Positions 47,323-57,285 of a stretch of 64,000 nt of DNA are shown here, piece after piece; the stretch's first letter is position 1; each line of letters begins with the position of its first letter. The stretch is from positions 493,133-557,132 of the forward strand of contig JAKVAR010000009.1 in the NCBI GenBank assembly GCA_022447585.1, in the 5' to 3' direction. Origin of the DNA: Crocinitomicaceae bacterium. GTDB lineage: Bacteria; Bacteroidota; Bacteroidia; Flavobacteriales_D; Crocinitomicaceae. The position numbers and the translations under genes were made by a program. Below the pieces are notes generated by a model. The model ran no database searches. It saw only the letters and a program-made list of their open reading frames with translations, and was not told the DNA's origin.

Positions 47323-48015
47323 ATGAAACAACACTTTTTAATCCTTCTATTTTTGGGCTTGCTGAATACGGTTTTTGCACAACCCCATAAGACGATCAAG
47401 AAATATAAGCCTTATAAATGGATGATTGGCGCTAGTTGGACTGCAATTGATGATGATGGGCGTAAGTTTGCAGGCCTTTTTGATTATAGTAAATCATGGA
47501 ATATTCTTCCTTATCCTTCTAAAATAAGCGTTGACCGTTACTTAAAACATGGATGGAGTATCGAAGGATCAGCAACCTACAGCGAATATAAACTGGGCAA
47601 GATGGTCCAATGCTCTACAGATGTATCTAGTATATTAGCTTCGTTCGATATAAATGCTAAGCATAGTTTTTATACATATTATGCTCCTAGACATCGCTGG
47701 ATTGAACCATATTTTTCAATGGGAATTGGATATACATATAGATCTTCAGCCCGTGTTGCAGAGCACGTACCAACAGTCAACTTGGGGTTTGGCTTGAATT
47801 TTTGGTTCTCCAAGAATATTGGTATTCAACTCCATTCACATGGAAAGCTTGGTGTTTACCCTGGTTTCTGGGACTCGCACACTAGCTACTTTCAACATTC
47901 TGCTGGATTATTATTCAGATGGCAAAATAAGAAAACTAAAAAGAGCGACTTTAAAAGAAAAAAGAATAAATGGGCACACGGAAATAAAGGATACAAAAGA
48001 AAGGGAGGACACTAA
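47323..48015 (+). CDS. Exported outer-membrane-type protein
   Basis: A 230-residue protein with signal peptide ('FLILLFLGLLNTVFAQ') and amphipathic beta strands rich in Tyr/Trp ('WMIGASWTAIDDDGRKFAG', 'YFSMGIGYTYRSS', 'VNLGFGLNFWFSKNIGIQL'). This is the pattern of an OmpA-type eight-strand barrel. The last 30 residues are a very basic Lys/Arg/Gly tail, unusual for a barrel protein. Its end overlaps the convergent methyltransferase gene by four bases. Confidence 0.65.
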   Translation: MKQHFLILLFLGLLNTVFAQPHKTIKKYKPYKWMIGASWTAIDDDGRKFAGLFDYSKSWNILPYPSKISVDRYLKHGWSIEGSATYSEYKLGKMVQCSTDVSSILASFDINAKHSFYTYYAPRHRWIEPYFSMGIGYTYRSSARVAEHVPTVNLGFGLNFWFSKNIGIQLHSHGKLGVYPGFWDSHTSYFQHSAGLLFRWQNKKTKKSDFKRKKNKWAHGNKGYKRKGGH

Positions 48016-48593
48016 TTCTTTTGTAATTTAATGAAATATTCGTTTCCTTGTCTAGGACCAACCGAGTTGAAACATTCTTCAATTTGTACAAATTTATACA
48101 ACCTCTTGAAGTATTTTAAGTACTCTTCTTTATCTCCACCATATGGAGGGCCTGATTCAAAGTGGCGACTAAACATGACTCCAATCATTTTACCTTTTGG
48201 ATTCAATAAATCGTATACCTTCTGCACATAAGCCTCTCTAAAGGTCGGATTGATTGCACAGAACATTGTTTGCTCAACTATAATGTCATAGCATCCTGAA
48301 TGATCGAAAAAATCCCCTAAATGAATATTTGCTTTTGGAAATTCAGGAATTCGATTTTTAAAAGATTCAAGCGGTTCTTCAACTAAATCAATGATATTCA
48401 CGTTCGTGAACCCTTGTAAGTATAAATACTCCGCTTCGTGACCGTTACCACATCCTGGTATTAAAATTTTTAATTCCTTATCGTCAACTTGATCAAAATA
48501 TTCTTTTATTGGGGTTGAAACTTGTCCTAAATCCCACCCCGTTTCATTAACTCTATACTTCCTACTCCAAAATTCCTTTGACTCTCTAATCAT
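48012..48593 (-). CDS. SAM-dependent methyltransferase, TPMT-like
   Basis: A 193-residue methyltransferase. The opening 'FWSRKYRVNETGWDLGQVS' and the SAM motif 'ILIPGCGNGHEAEYL' (near residue 45) place it in the thiopurine-methyltransferase-like group, with 'DIIVEQTMFCAINPTFR' following. Substrates are small S-, Se- or halide-type acceptors in known members; unknown here. It is the last gene of the leftward B12-linked run and overlaps its upstream neighbour by one base. Confidence 0.83.
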   Translation of the reverse strand: MIRESKEFWSRKYRVNETGWDLGQVSTPIKEYFDQVDDKELKILIPGCGNGHEAEYLYLQGFTNVNIIDLVEEPLESFKNRIPEFPKANIHLGDFFDHSGCYDIIVEQTMFCAINPTFREAYVQKVYDLLNPKGKMIGVMFSRHFESGPPYGGDKEEYLKYFKRLYKFVQIEECFNSVGPRQGNEYFIKLQKN

Positions 48594-49552
48594 TAAATCA
48601 CTTCTAATTTAATTGTCTCAACATTTAATCCATTATTGACTTTCACGAAATAAATACCTTTGTCAAAACCTGTTAATTCTAGCGTTTTTGAGCCGCTAAT
48701 TAGCCCTCTTAAAATAACCCTTCCTTGAGCATCAACAATAGAATAATCAAGCATAAAATCTGACTCTAAGTGTACTATACCATTAGATGGATTTGGATAC
48801 ACTTTAACTAGATTATTATCTAATTCTTCAATTGATTCTGTTGTACTATGAATAACACCAATTGCAGTTAAATCAAACCCTCCTGTTTCAAACTCCGTTG
48901 GAAATGGTTCATTAATAATTGTTCCTTGAGAGTCGAATGAACCAATTGCCGGGTCAATACTTCCTATCACATCAATTATTTTAACATGCGTAATATTACC
49001 AACATCTAAACCAGGAATACCTATTAATTCTTGCAAGTCAAATGGAGTTCCGAAATAAACTCTATATTTTCCAGCTAAATTATTAACATACCTACAGTCA
49101 GTAAATGTAAAGTTGTCCGATTGAACATTCGTCGGGATTTCACTTGTTGCAGGAAATCTGAAGTAATTAAATCCATCAGAGCTTACTTCTACAAAAGCTA
49201 GTTCTAAATAATCATCAGCAAAACCATTTTCAAAAATCGTAAAATCTGGCCCAGGTCCATTAACAATTGGACTATCAAAAGTAGCAATAGCTTCTCCTCC
49301 ATCACCTAATGAAACTACCGTTCCTGAAGAATTTCCAATCGCATTAGAATCCGTTCCATATGAAGCTAATCCTGCACTAGGATTTAAAATATTTCTAGGT
49401 CCCCTTGTAACAGTTACATTAGTAGCCCAATCAATTATAATAGAAGAATCTTTATAAATTGCGGTACTACCAGGATTACCCGGAGCAGGTGCAAAAGATT
49501 GTCCAAGTGAGAATGAACTGATAAATATCGAAAAAAATAAAATCCTATTCAT
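48593..49552 (-). CDS. T9SS-sorted cell-surface protein of the B12 locus
   Basis: A 319-residue secreted protein: signal peptide ('ILFFSIFISSFSLGQ'), a beta-sandwich-like domain with 'GDGGEAIATFDSPIVNGPG' and 'DFTIFENGFADDYLELAFVE', and a T9SS type-A sorting domain over the last 75 residues ('VKVYPNPSNGIVHLES' to 'ETIKLEVI'). This surface-protein type frequently accompanies B12-linked BtuB/propeller genes in Bacteroidota as I recall it, which suggests corrinoid capture; that role is inferred. It overlaps the BtuG-like gene by eight bases. Confidence 0.75.
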   Translation of the reverse strand: MNRILFFSIFISSFSLGQSFAPAPGNPGSTAIYKDSSIIIDWATNVTVTRGPRNILNPSAGLASYGTDSNAIGNSSGTVVSLGDGGEAIATFDSPIVNGPGPDFTIFENGFADDYLELAFVEVSSDGFNYFRFPATSEIPTNVQSDNFTFTDCRYVNNLAGKYRVYFGTPFDLQELIGIPGLDVGNITHVKIIDVIGSIDPAIGSFDSQGTIINEPFPTEFETGGFDLTAIGVIHSTTESIEELDNNLVKVYPNPSNGIVHLESDFMLDYSIVDAQGRVILRGLISGSKTLELTGFDKGIYFVKVNNGLNVETIKLEVI

Positions 49553-50597
49553 AAAAAATAAATTTTGATGGGTTCAACCCCACGTGATAAGTAGACAATA
49601 AATTTCCTGAAGTTGAATACTCATGTACATAACCAGTATTTGTAAACGACATGGCATCACTTAAATAAATCGAATTTCTAAATGGATTATAATGAACTCC
49701 ATACAATGTATTTATTCCAGATAAATCAATAAAGTTTGGTTCAACAATAGTTTCCGAAATTGGATCAAACAAATCAACCCTAGACATCGAAGTAGAGAAA
49801 TCATAATAAGAAATAATGATTTTATCATTCATTTTAGTCAGTCCTGAAGCATCAAAAGAAAAATTTTCAGCAACCATATTAGAAAGTGAATTAATTCGAA
49901 CGAGTCTAGATGGAATAGCTCCATAGTCACCTCGGGTAATAACATAAACATCTCCTTCATTATCTGTTAAACATCCTCCCGGATTCTTTCCAACAGTAAT
50001 TCGGTCTATTTCAGCGTTCGTATTCAAATCAATGATTGAAACTGTTGAATCCATTAAGGGTGAATTTAATCCTCCTGAATTGGTCACAAATAACTTAGAA
50101 CCAGAAACTGTTAAATCCTCAGGGTTTAAACCAACTGCAATTCTTTGAGAAATATTAAATGATGTTGTATCAAATACATCTACAAAACCATCGAAACATG
50201 TCACATATGCTTTATCACCATAAAATTCAATATTTCTAGGCTGTTTTGCAACGCCGTTCTCCATCATTGAAATTTGCGCAACACTTGTAAAGTTAATCGC
50301 ATCCAAAACCTCAATTGTACTCGAAACATTAACTACAATATAAATTTTTCCACCGTATCGTTTTATATCATTACCTGTATCCCCCAATTGCCTTCCGACC
50401 TTTGTTGAGAATAAGGTATTTGAAACACTTCCATCTGAATTATTGATCCAAGATAATGTAGAATTATTCTGTTGAAATAATCCTTCGCAAAGCACCACGA
50501 CTCCATCTGAAAGACTTGACGAAACAACAACCTCTTCCAGATCATCTTTTTTACAAGAAAAAAGTAACAATACTAACAACAAACTAATTAAACGCAT
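49545..50597 (-). CDS. Beta-propeller lipoprotein, BtuG/YncE-like
   Basis: A 350-residue lipoprotein (lipobox 'LLLFSC' at residues 10-15) made of repeated propeller blades with YncE-type motifs ('IYIVVNVSSTIEVLDA', 'AYVTCFDGFVDVFDTTS', 'RIAVGLNPEDLTVSGSKLFV', 'VGKNPGGCLTDNEGDVYVI'). In gut Bacteroides the surface propeller lipoprotein BtuG caps BtuB and binds B12 with extreme affinity; this gene is directly behind a BtuB-like receptor and a cobalamin riboswitch. The BtuG role is therefore likely but not shown. Its start overlaps the btuB end by 14 bases. Confidence 0.8.
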   Translation of the reverse strand: MRLISLLLVLLLFSCKKDDLEEVVVSSSLSDGVVVLCEGLFQQNNSTLSWINNSDGSVSNTLFSTKVGRQLGDTGNDIKRYGGKIYIVVNVSSTIEVLDAINFTSVAQISMMENGVAKQPRNIEFYGDKAYVTCFDGFVDVFDTTSFNISQRIAVGLNPEDLTVSGSKLFVTNSGGLNSPLMDSTVSIIDLNTNAEIDRITVGKNPGGCLTDNEGDVYVITRGDYGAIPSRLVRINSLSNMVAENFSFDASGLTKMNDKIIISYYDFSTSMSRVDLFDPISETIVEPNFIDLSGINTLYGVHYNPFRNSIYLSDAMSFTNTGYVHEYSTSGNLLSTYHVGLNPSKFIFYE

Positions 50598-52542
50598 AAC
50601 TCAATGTAATTGAATAATTTATACCTGGCATAGCAAATGAACGAATATATGAATAGGATGCATTAAATATATTCTTAACATTTCCAATAACCCTAATACT
50701 ACTCTGATCAAACTTGAACTGATGAAAAATACTTAAATCACTTATGACAAATCCTGGAATTTCATTAGCTATTACATTTTCATTTAATGCATATCTTTTT
50801 GCTACATAACTTGTTGAAAATCGAAACCCTGTACGTTTAAAAATTACGCTTAAATCTCCATTTGCAGTATACTTGGGAATATAGGCAACTTGATTTAAAT
50901 AAGTGGGTGATTCCACATCTGTAACATCAATTGTTTTTTGATACGTGAAATTTCCATTAAACTCCAATCTCCAATCACTTTTAATTAATGTTAGAACATT
51001 TAAATTCAAATCTCCTCCGAATGTATTTGTTTTACCAATATTCTGCATTGACCAAACAAACAAATTTTTAGTAGGAACAGCAACAATTTTATTCGATACT
51101 CTATTAAAGAAAACATTTGATTTCCAATCAATTTTTACTTTTCCTTTAGCAGGAGTCCACAAAAAACCTAAGTTAGCTTGATGTGCATCCTCGGGAAGTA
51201 ATTCAAGATTACCAATACTATTGTAATACAGCTCATTAAATGTTGGCATGCGGAATGAGTTACGATACCACAGTTCTAATTGCGTTCTTTTCCTCCATTC
51301 CCGACTCTTAAGACTAATAAAAGGGTTTCCTCTTAACGTATTCTCTGGTTGATTTCCTTTCTGATTTAGTTCATAAACAAACTGTCCCGACATTTGAATA
51401 TTTGCCGTAAATATTGAATGACGATATTTCAGTCCAATCAATCCATAACTATGAAACCTTATTGGTTGTGCAAATGATGTATCATTTACATTCAAATCTG
51501 AAAGTGTTTCCTCAACACCTCCATACAGTTGAATTTTATCCCAATAATTAACAAATGATATCCCTCCATTGATATTTCTATTTATAAATTGATTATCTAT
51601 TTGTCCTTCAAGGTTAAAATAAGTTGGATCAAAATACCTGGTATTATCGTAGGTAGTATTTAGATAAATACGACTATAAAATTTCTTTTTATAAAAACTG
51701 AAGTCTGTAAAACCTGTGAATCGATCGGTTGTTAATTCCTCATCAGCGGTAGAGTTATATAAGATAACAGCTCCAGGAAGTTCTTGTTGAATCGATTTTG
51801 CCTTTACCCCAAGCCTTAATCTAGATTTTTTAAACTTAAATCCGGTTGCTATACCATAACTAAAATCGGAATAGTTATTGTTTCTTCTTTCTCCCTCAAG
51901 CATATTATTTCCATTTGGAAATGAAAACGAGTATTCTCCTTCTGCCTGTTGTAATCGACCGTATGCGCTTACAAAAAATTTGTTCGGATTATATTTTGCA
52001 CCGATATAGCCTTTTAACTGACCAAAAGAACCATAAGTAGCATTAGCTCTGCATGTGATTGTATCTTTGCCGAAGGAATTTTCCATAGTTTCAATCATGA
52101 AAGAACTTCCACTGATTTGTGCAGAAATTGGAATTAAAAGATTGGATGAATAGCCTACAGAACTTGTTATAAGCTCTACATTGTCAACATGAATTTGACC
52201 AAGATTAACTTGACCAGTTTGCGAGTTATTTAAAGTCATTCCATCAACAACAATAGCAGAATGGTTTGCCCCTAAACTTCTCATTGAAACAGTTTTCAAT
52301 CCACCTAAGCCGCCATAGGATTTAATATTTACTCCACTTACTTTTATGAGTACATCACTGATATCGATGGGTTGTAGCTCAATTAAATCTAATTTACTCA
52401 TCACATTTTTGTGCGATTTTTCAATTAGTACGATACCTGGAATATAAGAGACATTAACTTCTTCAATATTTTGTATGGAATCTTTCTGTCCGCTTGCTAT
52501 AAAGCAGAATAAAATTATTGGTATGACTAAAACTAGACGCAT
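50584..52542 (-). CDS. btuB: TonB-dependent outer-membrane receptor, BtuB-like
   Basis: About 652 residues from the ATG at 52542, which opens the signal peptide ('MRLVLVIPIILFCFIASGQ'); the six codons upstream fall in a hairpin. The plug domain includes 'SDVLIKVSGVNIKSYGGLGG' and 'VSMRSLGANHSAIVVDGMTL'; a 22-strand barrel follows, ending in the typical aromatic strand 'NYSITLSYAFN'. Placement one gene behind a cobalamin riboswitch and next to a BtuG-like propeller supports corrinoid uptake. There is no CarboxypepD_reg extension, as in classical BtuB. A hairpin with a U-run directly precedes the AUG. Confidence 0.85.
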   Translation of the reverse strand: MRLVLVIPIILFCFIASGQKDSIQNIEEVNVSYIPGIVLIEKSHKNVMSKLDLIELQPIDISDVLIKVSGVNIKSYGGLGGLKTVSMRSLGANHSAIVVDGMTLNNSQTGQVNLGQIHVDNVELITSSVGYSSNLLIPISAQISGSSFMIETMENSFGKDTITCRANATYGSFGQLKGYIGAKYNPNKFFVSAYGRLQQAEGEYSFSFPNGNNMLEGERRNNNYSDFSYGIATGFKFKKSRLRLGVKAKSIQQELPGAVILYNSTADEELTTDRFTGFTDFSFYKKKFYSRIYLNTTYDNTRYFDPTYFNLEGQIDNQFINRNINGGISFVNYWDKIQLYGGVEETLSDLNVNDTSFAQPIRFHSYGLIGLKYRHSIFTANIQMSGQFVYELNQKGNQPENTLRGNPFISLKSREWRKRTQLELWYRNSFRMPTFNELYYNSIGNLELLPEDAHQANLGFLWTPAKGKVKIDWKSNVFFNRVSNKIVAVPTKNLFVWSMQNIGKTNTFGGDLNLNVLTLIKSDWRLEFNGNFTYQKTIDVTDVESPTYLNQVAYIPKYTANGDLSVIFKRTGFRFSTSYVAKRYALNENVIANEIPGFVISDLSIFHQFKFDQSSIRVIGNVKNIFNASYSYIRSFAMPGINYSITLSYAFN

Positions 52543-52570
52543 AAAAAAGGGGAAAGTCAACTTTCCCCTT
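52543..52570 (-). terminator. Terminator-like hairpin between the DUF4465 gene and btuB
   Basis: A perfect 10-bp stem (52547-52556 with 52561-52570) with a four-base loop fills the 34-base gap between the DUF4465 stop (52577) and the btuB AUG (52542). On the minus strand it is followed by six U residues (52548-52543) that run straight into AUG. It may partially terminate or regulate access to the btuB start. Confidence 0.8.
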
Positions 52571-52576
52571 CTTCAT

Positions 52577-53557
52577 TTATTTGACAATTTTTTGAGTAAA
52601 CTTACCACTACTATTAGTAACACTCAAGATATAAACTCCATTATTGAAATTAGATAAATCTAAAATGGAAAGCTCATTATGCTCTTTATTGATAATCACT
52701 GCCCCACTCAAGTCAGTAATTTTTAAGACTCCTTGATCTCCTTTGACTGTTAATTTATCCACAACTGGATTTGGGAAAACACTAATTGATGACAACTCAT
52801 TCTCCTCAATACCTAATGGGAAAGAAGAAACAAGATCATCAATTGCATAATAAGCTGGTGTATTCATTCCATTCAATGGGTCATTATCTGTTGACTCCAT
52901 TCGAAGGGAAATTTTGTTTACCATAAACCCAAGGGATTGAACGTCGACATTGATCCATTCATCAACAATATAATCATCCGCACTATTCGCGAAACGATAA
53001 TCAGCAAGTAAAACTTCAATAGAATCTTTCTGCGTTTGACCGTAATCTTCACATACTACCCAAACACGGTAAAAGTCTTCACCATTTGTACCATCCGGAG
53101 AACCGGCAGCATTATTAGGAGAACCGAATTGTTTTGCATAGGCATCACCATCTCTCATTGAAATAGCTGCATAAGTTGTATTTGTAATTTTGAAAGAATC
53201 GATATATTGGTATTGATTTTCACATGAAATTACTCCAGAACTATAGCCAACTGCATAGTTTGAACTACCATTATGACCTGCCCCCGTAAATGCGCTGTAC
53301 TGATTCCCGAAGCCTGCCGTTGTTGCATCTGTCATATTAGAAATAGAATGACCAGTCCATGAACCACCCCAAGCATTAGGAGTAAAAACATTCGAAAAAC
53401 GAATTTGATCGGTTCCCAACAGGAAATCACCATTTCCAGCAGATCCATTATCAAATGTGTCTGCAGCAAGAGTGAATGATTCAAAATCGATAGTTTGTTG
53501 TGCTTGAGTTGATGCTCCAAGCAATAAAGCAGTTGCTAGTACGTAAGTTTTCTTCAT
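52577..53557 (-). CDS. DUF4465 T9SS-sorted surface protein, riboswitch-controlled
   Basis: A 326-residue secreted protein with signal peptide ('TYVLATALLLGASTQAQ'). The DUF4465 domain starts 'TIDFESFTLAADTFDNGS' and contains 'TDQIRFSNVFTPNAWGGSW', 'GNQYSAFTGAG' and 'FYRVWVVCEDYGQTQKDSIE'. A T9SS type-A sorting domain follows ('ISVFPNPVVDKLTVKGDQG' to 'FTQKIVK'). It is the first gene after a cobalamin riboswitch. DUF4465 proteins linked to B12 in gut Bacteroidota have, to my memory, been described as surface B12-binding BtuH proteins; here the anchor is T9SS rather than lipid. Role inferred from that link. Confidence 0.85.
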   Translation of the reverse strand: MKKTYVLATALLLGASTQAQQTIDFESFTLAADTFDNGSAGNGDFLLGTDQIRFSNVFTPNAWGGSWTGHSISNMTDATTAGFGNQYSAFTGAGHNGSSNYAVGYSSGVISCENQYQYIDSFKITNTTYAAISMRDGDAYAKQFGSPNNAAGSPDGTNGEDFYRVWVVCEDYGQTQKDSIEVLLADYRFANSADDYIVDEWINVDVQSLGFMVNKISLRMESTDNDPLNGMNTPAYYAIDDLVSSFPLGIEENELSSISVFPNPVVDKLTVKGDQGVLKITDLSGAVIINKEHNELSILDLSNFNNGVYILSVTNSSGKFTQKIVK

Positions 53558-53665
53558 CGTAATTAATTAATAAATGTAAAACGTTGAAAAAATCAGTTAA
53601 AAGAATTGACACATACCTAAGTACGTATTAAATCCGACTTTAATCTGAAGTCTTCTTTATATCTA

Positions 53666-53821
53666 ACTTTGGCAAGTATTCTGACTCATACCATATCAAC
53701 TGATCCTTCCCACCTTCATTTTAAGGCAGTGGCTTATCAATTGACTTTAAGTATTTACAGCTGCAGATACAGTTCTGGATTCACACCAGATTCCTTATTA
53801 TTCACAACGTGAACCAAAAGT
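53666..53821 (-). ncRNA. Cobalamin riboswitch
   Basis: Read on the minus strand this 156-base leader has the order of conserved cobalamin-riboswitch elements: a P1 half (53821-53814), a hairpin (53813-53801), 'GGTGTGAATCC' (about 53786-53776), 'GCAGCTGTAA' (about 53763-53754), the core 'GCCACTG' (about 53732-53726), 'GGTGGGAAGG', and the B12 box 'AGTCAGAATACTTGCC' (53686-53671) ending in the P1 return half (53672-53666). It lies 109 bases before the DUF4465 gene. Binding of the cofactor should reduce expression of the following genes. I see no strong terminator after it, so the expression platform may be translational. Confidence 0.9.
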
Positions 53822-53826
53822 CGCTG

Positions 53827-53834
53827 CAAATGTA
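53827..53834 (-). promoter_or_regulatory. Probable -7 promoter element of the riboswitch transcript
   Basis: TACATTTG on the minus strand lies five bases before the 5' end of the riboswitch and between it and the stop of the upstream receptor (53860). A clear -33 TTG at the right distance is not seen. It suggests that the riboswitch operon has its own start rather than depending on read-through from the receptor gene. Confidence 0.55.
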
Positions 53835-53859: not shown

Positions 53860-56280
53860 CTAGTTCTTGTCTAACTTAAAAGTATATTGAAGTATAATTG
53901 TTCTCGGTTGTTCAATTTTAAGGGGGCGCAACGAATATGTTCTATTGGCAATATTCGCACTAATTAATGCAAGTTTATGTTTTTGGTTTAAATTATATGA
54001 AATACGTGCATCAAAAATCCAGTTCCCATGCCTATGAGAATTATAATAGTCCATATATTCTATTTCCTGAACAAAAGACAACTGTTCGGTTAACTCTTCA
54101 AAATCTTGAATAACAATGTCCATGTTTTCAATCTTACTAAAGTATTTTATACTGAAACCTACTCCTAGTTTTTTCCAAAAAGTAAACTCAACATCTCCCT
54201 TCACATTATGTAAAAACCTATATTTCAATATTCCTTTAGACGGATCCAATGATGTCGTGTTATACGTATATTCTTTATCATAATAAACAGAGTCAATTGC
54301 ATAAACAAAATCAGGAGATAGTGATTTTGGAACTATATAATTGTAGCCTGTCATAAACATTACGTCCGTCTTTTCCCCAATTTTTGCCTTACCAGAAAAG
54401 GACGCGTCAATTCCTAAAACTCTTGATTCGCCTGTATTCATAAATCTAAACCCGGCAAAATTTGTCGGACTAGAACCATCTCCCCAAAAACCGAATGTAT
54501 ATTCTATAGTGTTTTGGTATTCTTGCCAAAACCCTGCTAAATCAATATAACCAAAAATATTTCCTAGTTTAATTCCTTGTTTCAAACCAATTTCAGCATT
54601 CCAACTTGTTTCGGGTTCTAAATATGGATTTGGAAACACACCAAAATTCCCGACACCTGTTCTAATAAAACGTTCAGTTATTGTCGGAAACCTATACCCT
54701 TGGCCATACGAGGCGCGTAAATAAGTCTCCTGATAAAGTTTAATACTTGTTCCTGCCCTAAATATTGGTTTTAAAGCCGTTATTGAATCATTCAATTGAA
54801 AATACTCTAGTCTTCCGCCAACAGATAAATTAATTACTTTTTTAATTTTCTTTTCCAATTGCGTATAAGCAGATATATTCAACATTTGATTATTCGGACT
54901 TCCAGATCCTACATACATATTTGCAAAAGAATTTGTAAATGTACCTGTTATACCACCAATAAAATCAAGGTCTCCTATATTTTTATATCGTTTTTGAAAC
55001 ATGTAATCTCCATAATAAGTAGTGGCTTCATTAGATTGATTCGCAGTCATTTCATTATTCGAATGTAACAACCTTCCTCTTAATGAATGCTTTCCATTGG
55101 CTTGAGTAAAGAAATTTACATAAGGGTCAATATTGAAGATAAACTGATCTTGCAAAAAAACAGCACCTGGATATGCTCTAAACAAATCAGATGAATCCCC
55201 CAACCACGCAAAAGTCATGTTTGTTTGCGATAGCATCACATTCCCATTAACTCCATAATTTAACCCTTTATACTTTTTTGACCTATAGCGGAGGTTAAAA
55301 TTCAAACGTGCTCGTTTTGAAGACATTTGCTGCTCATTAAAACGAGAAACAGAGTCAAAATAAGGTGAATTAGCAACGATCGAATCTTCTATGGGAGGAC
55401 CTATAAAACCATGGTCATAATTGAAGTTTCCACCAATAACAACATCCAAATTTTTAATCATTCTAGAATGTAAAAAATTGACACCTGAAATTAGAGGGAA
55501 GTTATTCCACCATGCAGCCCCCTCCTCACTTGGATTGGAATAAAACCCAGAATATACATTCACCTTTGTTTTGGGTTTCAACTTTGGGTATGCAGTTCTA
55601 ATATGAATTGAACCAGAAAGTGCTGAACTACCAGAAAGCACTGAAGCTGCACCTTTAACAACTTCAATTTGGTGAATATTCTCAACCGGAATGAAGCCCC
55701 ACTCAGGTCTACCTGCATCTCCGGAAAGCATTGGCATATCATCCACAATTACAGCTACTTTTGACCCCACCCCGAATGTAAATCCAGAACCACCTCTAAT
55801 TTGAGGTTCTCCATCCAAAATATTTAACCCTGGTGTTTGATCTAAAGCTGTTTCAATACTGCGCGTATTTTTATTCTCAATAAGCTCAGGCCTTATAATT
55901 TCCATGGATACCGTTTGATCTTCAAGTGCTTTGTCAAACTTTCCAACCTTAACATCTACTCCTTCAATCTCTTGAACAAATGATTTTAAAACAATATCAT
56001 GCGTAACTGTACTGTTTAAAATAACATCAATATTGAATGTATCTGTAATCATACCTGAATAGCGACAAACAATTCTTGAGTTTCCAGCCGGAATATCCAA
56101 TTCATAGTTTCCCAAATCATCAGAATGCACACCAATAGTTACGTCTTTTCTGAAAATTATAGAGGCTCCCATAATAGGCTCTCCATTCTCATCGAGTACT
56201 TTTCCAATTAATTTTCCTTCCTGACAGAATGAAATTGTAGATAAAAATAGTGTTGTTATGGCTAGTAGATGCTTCATCAT
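53860..56280 (-). CDS. TonB-dependent receptor with carboxypeptidase-regulatory N-terminus
   Basis: An 806-residue outer-membrane receptor. Signal peptide ('LLAITTLFLSTISFCQ'), then a CarboxypepD_reg-like domain (about 22-95, 'GKLIGKVLDENGEPIMGAS'), a plug with 'ALDQTPGLNILDGEPQIRGG' and 'VAVIVDDMPMLSGDAG', and a large barrel ending 'PRTIILQYTFKLD'. Its substrate is unknown; it has no SusD partner, and its stop lies only 39 bases before the cobalamin riboswitch. It follows a T9SS-sorted protein gene from which it is separated by a hairpin that ends at its AUG. Confidence 0.9.
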   Translation of the reverse strand: MMKHLLAITTLFLSTISFCQEGKLIGKVLDENGEPIMGASIIFRKDVTIGVHSDDLGNYELDIPAGNSRIVCRYSGMITDTFNIDVILNSTVTHDIVLKSFVQEIEGVDVKVGKFDKALEDQTVSMEIIRPELIENKNTRSIETALDQTPGLNILDGEPQIRGGSGFTFGVGSKVAVIVDDMPMLSGDAGRPEWGFIPVENIHQIEVVKGAASVLSGSSALSGSIHIRTAYPKLKPKTKVNVYSGFYSNPSEEGAAWWNNFPLISGVNFLHSRMIKNLDVVIGGNFNYDHGFIGPPIEDSIVANSPYFDSVSRFNEQQMSSKRARLNFNLRYRSKKYKGLNYGVNGNVMLSQTNMTFAWLGDSSDLFRAYPGAVFLQDQFIFNIDPYVNFFTQANGKHSLRGRLLHSNNEMTANQSNEATTYYGDYMFQKRYKNIGDLDFIGGITGTFTNSFANMYVGSGSPNNQMLNISAYTQLEKKIKKVINLSVGGRLEYFQLNDSITALKPIFRAGTSIKLYQETYLRASYGQGYRFPTITERFIRTGVGNFGVFPNPYLEPETSWNAEIGLKQGIKLGNIFGYIDLAGFWQEYQNTIEYTFGFWGDGSSPTNFAGFRFMNTGESRVLGIDASFSGKAKIGEKTDVMFMTGYNYIVPKSLSPDFVYAIDSVYYDKEYTYNTTSLDPSKGILKYRFLHNVKGDVEFTFWKKLGVGFSIKYFSKIENMDIVIQDFEELTEQLSFVQEIEYMDYYNSHRHGNWIFDARISYNLNQKHKLALISANIANRTYSLRPLKIEQPRTIILQYTFKLDKN

Positions 56281-56309
56281 AAAAAAAAAGGGTCGTAAAA
56301 ATACGACCC
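56281..56309 (-). terminator. Terminator-like hairpin abutting the receptor start codon
   Basis: A perfect 8-bp stem (56290-56297 with 56302-56309) with a four-base A loop lies between the T9SS-protein stop (56338) and the receptor AUG (56280). On the minus strand nine U residues (56289-56281) follow and lead directly into AUG. It has the form of an intrinsic terminator and the same placement as the hairpin before btuB. Confidence 0.82.
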
Positions 56310-56337
56310 CGAAATTAATTCTTTTTCTTAGTTCTTC

Positions 56338-57285
56338 CTAGTTCTTAAAAATTTCGAAAGTATAGAATTTGTTATTCGTTTTTAAGTGTACAAAATAAAC
56401 TCCTGGTTTAGCATCAAAATAAACATCGCTCGACACTTTTCCAGCTTGAATAGACTGACCCAAATTGTTATATATTGAATATTCCCCGTTTAACTCAGTT
56501 TCAGAATTAAAAATGATCCTATTTGAACTATTATTCATTGATACAACAATACCGTCATTATCAGTTTCTTCTATTCCATTATTATCATCTGGATTATAGA
56601 TCAATTCAACATCATCAATTAATACCTCATCATTATTATTTCCTTGACCTGCATTTTCATTTGTTGTGAATGTAACTAATATAAATGCATTATCCGTTGC
56701 AGGTCCAGTATAATCGAAAGCAATTGCATGTCGCTCCCATTGCCCTTGAGTTGAAGGGTAATTATCAATTGCAGTCGCTACAACTTCAGCAGCAGAAGCA
56801 GCATCTTCAGGATCTTTATAATCATAGTTAGTATGCAATGTAGCTTTCATTCTTGCATTTCCTGAACCTCCATTAGGCGTATATTTAACCCAATAAACAA
56901 TTGAATCAGGTGTATCAACTAAAGCTTCCGAAAATTCAGAATTATTTGTTAATGAAATATTATGATTTGCCGGATCGGTCGCGGAAATCGCCCCCATATT
57001 AATTCGACCTAAAGTTACATTTCCATTAGCTGTAGTTCCCAAAATGGATTTTGCCCAAATTCTACAACTAGAATTCCCTGTTGAACCGGGTCTAACATCG
57101 GAAGAAGCTTCGCATTGATTCTGAGCAGCTCCTGCCCATGTTCCAGAGGCACTCAAAAAACTATTCCAGTTATCTGGTTCATCATTATTGGTCCAAGACT
57201 CCATATCTCCATTACCAATTTGCCCTTGAGCAAATGAATAAGTCCCAGTAAAAGTTAATAAAGCAAAAAGTAGTATTCTTTTCAT
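56338..57285 (-). CDS. T9SS-sorted secreted protein, PCMD-like
   Basis: A 315-residue secreted protein: signal peptide ('ILLFALLTFTGTYSFAQ'), a beta-rich domain starting 'GNGDMESWTNNDEPDNW' with 'TTANGNVTLGRINMG' and 'DSIVYWVKYTPNGGSGNARM' that resembles the PCMD (putative carbohydrate metabolism) domain, then a T9SS type-A sorting domain ending 'KFYTFEIFKN'. It directly precedes a TonB receptor and may deliver a ligand to it. The ligand is unknown. The PCMD likeness is a visual judgement. Confidence 0.7.
   Translation of the reverse strand: MKRILLFALLTFTGTYSFAQGQIGNGDMESWTNNDEPDNWNSFLSASGTWAGAAQNQCEASSDVRPGSTGNSSCRIWAKSILGTTANGNVTLGRINMGAISATDPANHNISLTNNSEFSEALVDTPDSIVYWVKYTPNGGSGNARMKATLHTNYDYKDPEDAASAAEVVATAIDNYPSTQGQWERHAIAFDYTGPATDNAFILVTFTTNENAGQGNNNDEVLIDDVELIYNPDDNNGIEETDNDGIVVSMNNSSNRIIFNSETELNGEYSIYNNLGQSIQAGKVSSDVYFDAKPGVYFVHLKTNNKFYTFEIFKN

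Follow-up and report, generated by a model that had tools for sequence, protein, structure and literature searches.

Among the literature examined, the described systems for vitamin B12 capture in Bacteroidota are those of gut Bacteroides, and these use lipoproteins. In Bacteroides thetaiotaomicron, BtuH, BtuJ, BtuK and BtuL are all lipoproteins (PMC12751083). Here we describe a locus of a Crocinitomicaceae bacterium (GenBank assembly GCA_022447585.1, contig JAKVAR010000009.1, positions 493,133 to 557,132) which resembles cobamide loci 1-3 of B. thetaiotaomicron in its riboswitch control, in a BtuB gene adjoining a BtuG gene, and in encoding a DUF4465 (BtuJ) protein together with a protein of predicted BtuH-like fold. 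It differs from them in two proteins that carry sorting tails of the type IX secretion system (T9SS), and in that no BtuF, BtuC or BtuD genes were seen among the open reading frames (ORFs) of the operon. The whole 64,000-nucleotide stretch that was analyzed is called the window, and coordinates count from its first letter. We consider it probable that the locus is a cobalamin-riboswitch-controlled operon for outer-membrane cobamide capture, of the BtuB/BtuG kind, in which the second T9SS-tailed protein, here called S2, is the T9SS-anchored counterpart of BtuH. Its features are:

53827..53834, minus strand: possible Bacteroidetes-type -7 promoter element TACATTTG, read by eye, directly before the aptamer
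53654..53833, minus strand: cobalamin riboswitch aptamer (RF00174), 93.4 bits, full-length model 1-189
52577..53557, minus strand: DUF4465 (BtuJ-type) protein with a signal peptide (by inspection) and a T9SS type A sorting domain, Pfam and NCBIfam matches above cut-off
52541..52576, minus strand: terminator-like hairpin with a T tract running into the btuB start codon, -21.5 kcal/mol, z -5.4
50584..52542, minus strand: BtuB-like TonB-dependent receptor, TonB plug 42.1 bits (cut-off 23.9)
49545..50597, minus strand: BtuG-like propeller lipoprotein, DUF5074 49.4 bits (cut-off 27.2)
48593..49552, minus strand: S2, second T9SS-tailed protein, predicted BtuH-like fold, unnamed family, Por_Secre_tail 40.4 bits (cut-off 27)
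48012..48593, minus strand: TPMT-like methyltransferase, closing the gene run, TPMT 90 bits (cut-off 26)

A first-pass annotation, made from the sequence alone, had claimed a cobalamin riboswitch at 53666-53821. A covariance-model search places it at nearly the same position, with E 6.3e-22, a score far above the gathering score of 31.5 and all 189 model positions covered, and it is the only Rfam match above threshold within the window. The operon would be expected to respond to B12. The Bacteroidetes -7 promoter consensus is TAnnTTTG, and the Rfam match begins within the putative element. A scan for sigma-70 promoters was uninformative (23 sites vs 27.4 in shuffles). Five minus-strand genes follow the riboswitch, with overlaps of 14 nucleotides (nt) between btuB and btuG, 8 nt between btuG and S2, and 1 nt between S2 and the methyltransferase gene, which belongs to this gene run. 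The order and tight packing in the first-pass annotation are borne out by domain matches above cut-off and by the overlapping junctions after btuB; its four genes were right, and it omitted the methyltransferase as well as the hairpin that separates btuB from the DUF4465 gene. Immediately upstream of the riboswitch, and not part of its unit, the stretch 53860-57285 carries genes for a T9SS-tailed protein and another TonB-dependent receptor, with synteny in many close relatives; the receptor gene stops 26 nt short of the aptamer.

S2 is conserved and belongs to the B12 regulon. The full-length protein was found in 44 of 60 genomes of relatives and in 90 of 295 Bacteroidia genomes that form an even sample of the class (own genome included in both counts), nearly always in a single copy. 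Riboswitch linkage was evaluated in 80 of the 89 other class genomes with full-length S2, the nine omitted being the lowest-scoring. An RF00174 match lies on the same strand and no more than 8 kb upstream of S2 in 56 of these 80 genomes, where roughly 0.1 would be expected, and in nine of the 56 its distance from the S2 domain is at most 700 nt. S2 also co-occurs with DUF4465 across the class, being present in 70 of the 81 genomes with DUF4465 vs 20 of the 214 without it. Among the relatives, 32 of 43 other loci have a BtuB or BtuG match in the flank of S2 (up to 8 kb). The best 80 of 581 confirmed candidate loci, which are thus no even sample, include 61 with BtuB or BtuG on the same strand in the flank, 3 more with DUF4465 and 16 with none of these. 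At three loci DUF4465 and S2 are joined in one T9SS-tailed ORF (DUF4465 first in L202 and L133, S2 first in L203), with an upstream riboswitch at each.

The family appears to have escaped annotation. Searches of S2 against Pfam, NCBIfam and PDB sequence families returned nothing except the tail, two or three weak Pfam matches being at chance level, and a literature search, judged mostly by title, did not find the family in print. The nearest named matches are metagenome-assembled genomes (MAGs) of Crocinitomicaceae and Flavobacteriales, with at most 74% identity among the matches listed. In an alignment of 71 full-length members (the protein of the window and 70 of the 80 named loci), 67 have a match to the T9SS tail model (E 0.01) and none of the 71 has a lipobox-like start by a simple pattern.

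Some loci do not conform to this association and weigh against it. In 24 of the 80 class genomes there is no same-strand riboswitch close upstream of S2, and six have no RF00174 match at all. No BtuB, BtuG or DUF4465 match was found in the flank of S2 in 11 of the 43 relatives, some contigs being short (one locus, L079, is a 3.6 kb contig); gene-by-gene inspection of seven of these 11 loci showed S2 beside unrelated genes such as alaS. Three of the 11 genomes have a B12 operon that reads DUF4465-BtuB-BtuG-methyltransferase without S2, with the riboswitch in front.

In L192-L194, three relatives with the operon but without S2 in it, a TPMT-like methyltransferase stands directly 3' of BtuG. At L204 and L205, S2 follows its own riboswitch, and the stretch examined showed no BtuB, BtuG or DUF4465; in another four genomes from that family (f53), a riboswitch lies no more than 450 nt from the S2 domain. 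In three MAGs named RUG (L120, L144 and L153) the S2 domain is embedded in ORFs of 1036, 2383 and 2336 aa, respectively, and at L144 a cobalamin riboswitch lies just upstream.

The likeness of S2 to BtuH comes mainly from its predicted structure. The AlphaFold2 model of residues 17-244, built with 77 sequences, has a predicted local distance difference test score (pLDDT) of 95 and a predicted template modeling score (pTM) of 0.92. In a VIA-align run over 981 Foldseek-ranked PDB chains, rank 1 was BtuH2 (7biz; Z 12.4, root-mean-square deviation 3.1, 159 aligned residues) and rank 2 the BtuH domain of BtuG1 (8blw_B; Z 11.2), the next chain scoring 9.6. The aligned part of 7biz, residues 318-593, is the C-terminal, B12-binding domain of BtuH2. 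The BtuH likeness lies with S2, to which the first-pass annotation had given no assignment.

Sequence comparisons point in the same direction with less force. When the S2 profile was run against ORFs of two Bacteroides-like B12 loci, the top two places went to the two BtuH-domain proteins (14.5 and 6.6 bits), one of them BtuH2 by its match to 7biz and the other BtuG1-like. Profile-profile comparison by hhalign of S2 with eight BtuH domains gave a score of 31; 60 column shuffles reached at most 27.5, the reversed profile gave 16.8, and four other families of this operon scored 8.7-18.1. BtuH2 contacts the B12 phosphate through Asn399 and the lower base through Phe401 (PMC8941943). Both residues sit in the BtuH2 motif GNAF, as placed by numbers and spacing on the 7biz sequence, and the hhalign segment pairs this motif with ENGF in S2 (Asn399 with N109 and Phe401 with F111); N109 is present in all 71 members and F111 in 68. 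A second conserved loop, NDP-aromatic-PT-aromatic, with an aromatic residue at 217 in 71 of 71 members, could line the other side of a pocket, although this is a guess. BtuH and DUF4465 also share one ORF in genome G257, the same partnership as that of S2. The BtuH domain was found in 6 of the 295 Bacteroidia genomes vs 90 for S2; none of the six carries S2, which is not significant with n = 6, and a search of the own genome for the BtuH domain at E 0.001 found nothing.

S2 also departs from BtuH in several respects. There is no similarity at the level of a sequence family, a T9SS tail stands in place of a lipid, and Pfam and NCBIfam scans of the 319-aa S2 found no N-terminal Ig/PKD domain of the kind that BtuH has. 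The S2 domain comprises about 205-220 residues vs about 270-290 in BtuH, so S2 lacks a portion of that domain. Further results count against a BtuH-like function. The fold is common, and PAPP-A and CBM32 reach Z 9.6 against the S2 model. Foldseek alone put a phage protein first (E 1.9e-3), BtuG1 second (2.6e-3) and BtuH2 only 14th (1.2e-2), with no match to the model below E 0.001, and the S2 profile found no BtuH among PDB sequences at E up to 10. The hhalign probability was 19% (P 0.0012, 35 columns), and 12% (P 0.0024) with a smaller alignment. Five of the six polar contacts of BtuH2 (Gln333, His476, Tyr510, Trp511 and Trp577) have no secure counterpart in S2. Taken alone, the profile-profile similarity is only suggestive.

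The unmatched contacts and the weak sequence signal would suit a protein that belongs to the B12 regulon without binding cobamides and that has a structural or auxiliary part in the surface capture layer. BtuL provides a precedent, since in B. thetaiotaomicron B12 loci neither BtuL nor BtuK2 bound B12 and BtuL had an effect on vesicle release (PMC12751083), the only paper found that concerns BtuL. We regard this explanation as unlikely, for the best structural matches of S2 are the two solved BtuH domains, an invariant N109 and a nearly invariant F111 occupy the places of Asn399 and Phe401, and S2 is fused to B12-binding DUF4465 in three loci. BtuL (BT_1955 type) is, like S2, an accessory gene of a B12 locus; the two are unrelated by profile comparison, with an hhalign probability of 0.2 against the presumed BtuL of the Bacteroides-like locus L190, which was assigned by gene order. 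S2 was also evaluated as a relative of DUF4465 and rejected, the hhalign score of 15.8 falling inside the range of column-shuffled controls. Another reading sees S2 as a galactose-binding-like surface module of a general kind, with glycans as one possible ligand, which came into B12 operons by chance or for the sake of anchoring. It could draw on the CBM32, lectin and F5/8 type C folds that fill most rows below rank 2 (Z 8-9.6) and on the 11 relatives without a B12 gene beside S2, but is very doubtful in view of the class-wide riboswitch linkage, with nine riboswitches directly in front, the co-occurrence with DUF4465, and the single copy and high conservation of S2, which are not typical of carbohydrate-binding modules.

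As modeled, S2 would thus be a T9SS-anchored, BtuH-like cobamide binder. We lean, somewhat less firmly, towards the broader view that it founds an unnamed family which is the T9SS-anchored counterpart of BtuH in about one third of the sampled Bacteroidia genomes, and which together with DUF4465 makes up the surface layer by which Bacteroidota with a T9SS usually catch B12.

The DUF4465 protein is a clear member of its family (152 bits, Pfam cut-off 25) and ends in a Por_Secre_tail domain (45.5 bits, cut-off 27). In an alignment to 9fct, its residues Y129, N232, T233 and Y236, with numbers counted back along the chain, match Tyr146, Asn241, Thr242 and Tyr245 of BtuJ1. The signature IPR026444 is that of the T9SS sorting domain. 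It is carried by 229 of 824 DUF4465 family members, and the four BtuJ1 residues form hydrogen bonds to B12, as do their equivalents in BtuJ2 (PMC12751083). Members of the BtuJ family with C-terminal extracellular targeting domains have already been reported there, and B12 binding was reported for eight DUF4465 family members, among them a protein of Fluviicola taffensis (PMC13398666). The protein of the window resembles this F. taffensis protein (F2I9N3) and the BtuJ family in its DUF4465 match above cut-off, an MNTPAY loop and the equivalent of Tyr146, and we found no essential difference from the family. The first-pass annotation correctly recognized a riboswitch-headed B12 uptake operon with BtuB- and BtuG-like genes and two T9SS-tailed proteins, but it equated DUF4465 with BtuH, an assignment we reject as both papers name DUF4465 BtuJ (PMC12751083, PMC13398666). 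Nor is the T9SS-anchored form as little studied as it had proposed: the IPR026444 count and the F. taffensis binding result mean that a T9SS-tailed DUF4465 B12 binder is in substance already in print. A literature search found no paper naming both DUF4465 and T9SS, and none on a B12-binding T9SS cargo (the latter judged by title).

T9SS type A sorting domains score above cut-off in both the DUF4465 protein and S2. SprA is a core part of the T9SS and is encoded in this genome (SprA_N 522 bits). Both proteins are probably secreted by the T9SS and anchored at the surface, to judge from these domains, and there is good indirect support for both being B12-capture proteins. The BtuB-like receptor has B. 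thetaiotaomicron BtuB1 as its best PDB match (8blw_A, E 3.7e-78); we call it BtuB-like since its 86.7 bits are well below the TIGR01779 equivalog cut-off of 599.7. BtuG1 of the same complex is the best PDB match of the BtuG-like protein (8blw_B, E 1.9e-63), in which inspection revealed the lipobox FSC followed by KKDD, presumably a lipoprotein export signal.

The hairpin between the DUF4465 gene and btuB was not equaled in stability by any of 200 shuffles, and its fold includes part of the btuB start codon. Such a hairpin, of different sequence, is present at 14 of 21 DUF4465-btuB junctions, that of the window included, vs 0.78 expected, and at none of the other three operon junctions (0/34, 0/23 and 0/17; 0/74 in all). 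As a leaky terminator it would perhaps set the DUF4465 protein in excess. Seven of the 21 junctions without a hairpin count against this, as do L044, L048 and L193, in which it lies inside the predicted btuB frame, leaving 11 that are clearly intergenic. One rather unlikely alternative is that the hairpin acts on btuB translation by burying the start region; the fold covers part of the start codon, and the T tract ends at the ATG also in several relatives. A GC-rich stem followed by a T tract has the look of an intrinsic terminator, however, and a minus-strand terminator scan detects it as such; the two effects may coexist. In B. thetaiotaomicron, Bt1491 (DUF4465) exceeds every other protein of the B12 loci in abundance, but its paralog Bt1957 ranks very low (PMC10404256). 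Because of this low rank, and because the DUF4465 gene comes after btuG in the Bacteroides-like locus L191, the abundance of Bt1491 does not come from this hairpin; it is an analogy and no support for it.

Two further cobalamin riboswitches, one of them cut by a contig end, precede cbi/cob-type operons on contig C158 of the own genome (L005) and on contig C40 (L006), a similar contig of 15.8 kb that may stem from contamination. Of the L005 proteins, ten match models for corrin synthesis, seven above a curated cut-off, so synthesis and capture of cobamides may go together in this organism. Its metH is present as two overlapping ORFs of 361 and 917 aa (C124:144990-148536) that together span the model, either a natural split or a sequence error.

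We propose that scarce B12 would lead the riboswitch to permit expression of the operon. The DUF4465 protein would be made first, and probably in excess because of the leaky terminator just behind its gene, while BtuB, BtuG and S2 would be expressed at a lower level by read-through past the hairpin. The T9SS would carry the DUF4465 protein and S2 across the outer membrane, and both would remain on the surface, where BtuG would be a lipid-anchored lipoprotein. Both T9SS-tailed proteins could then catch cobamides and hand them over to the BtuBG lid and pore.

The new part of this system is S2, a widespread, unannotated and riboswitch-linked protein with a specific proposed function. If the proposal is true, Bacteroidota with a T9SS would have a parallel kit of secreted B12 binders, a family without annotation in about 30% of the sampled Bacteroidia would gain a function, and vitamin scavenging would join the roles of T9SS cargo.

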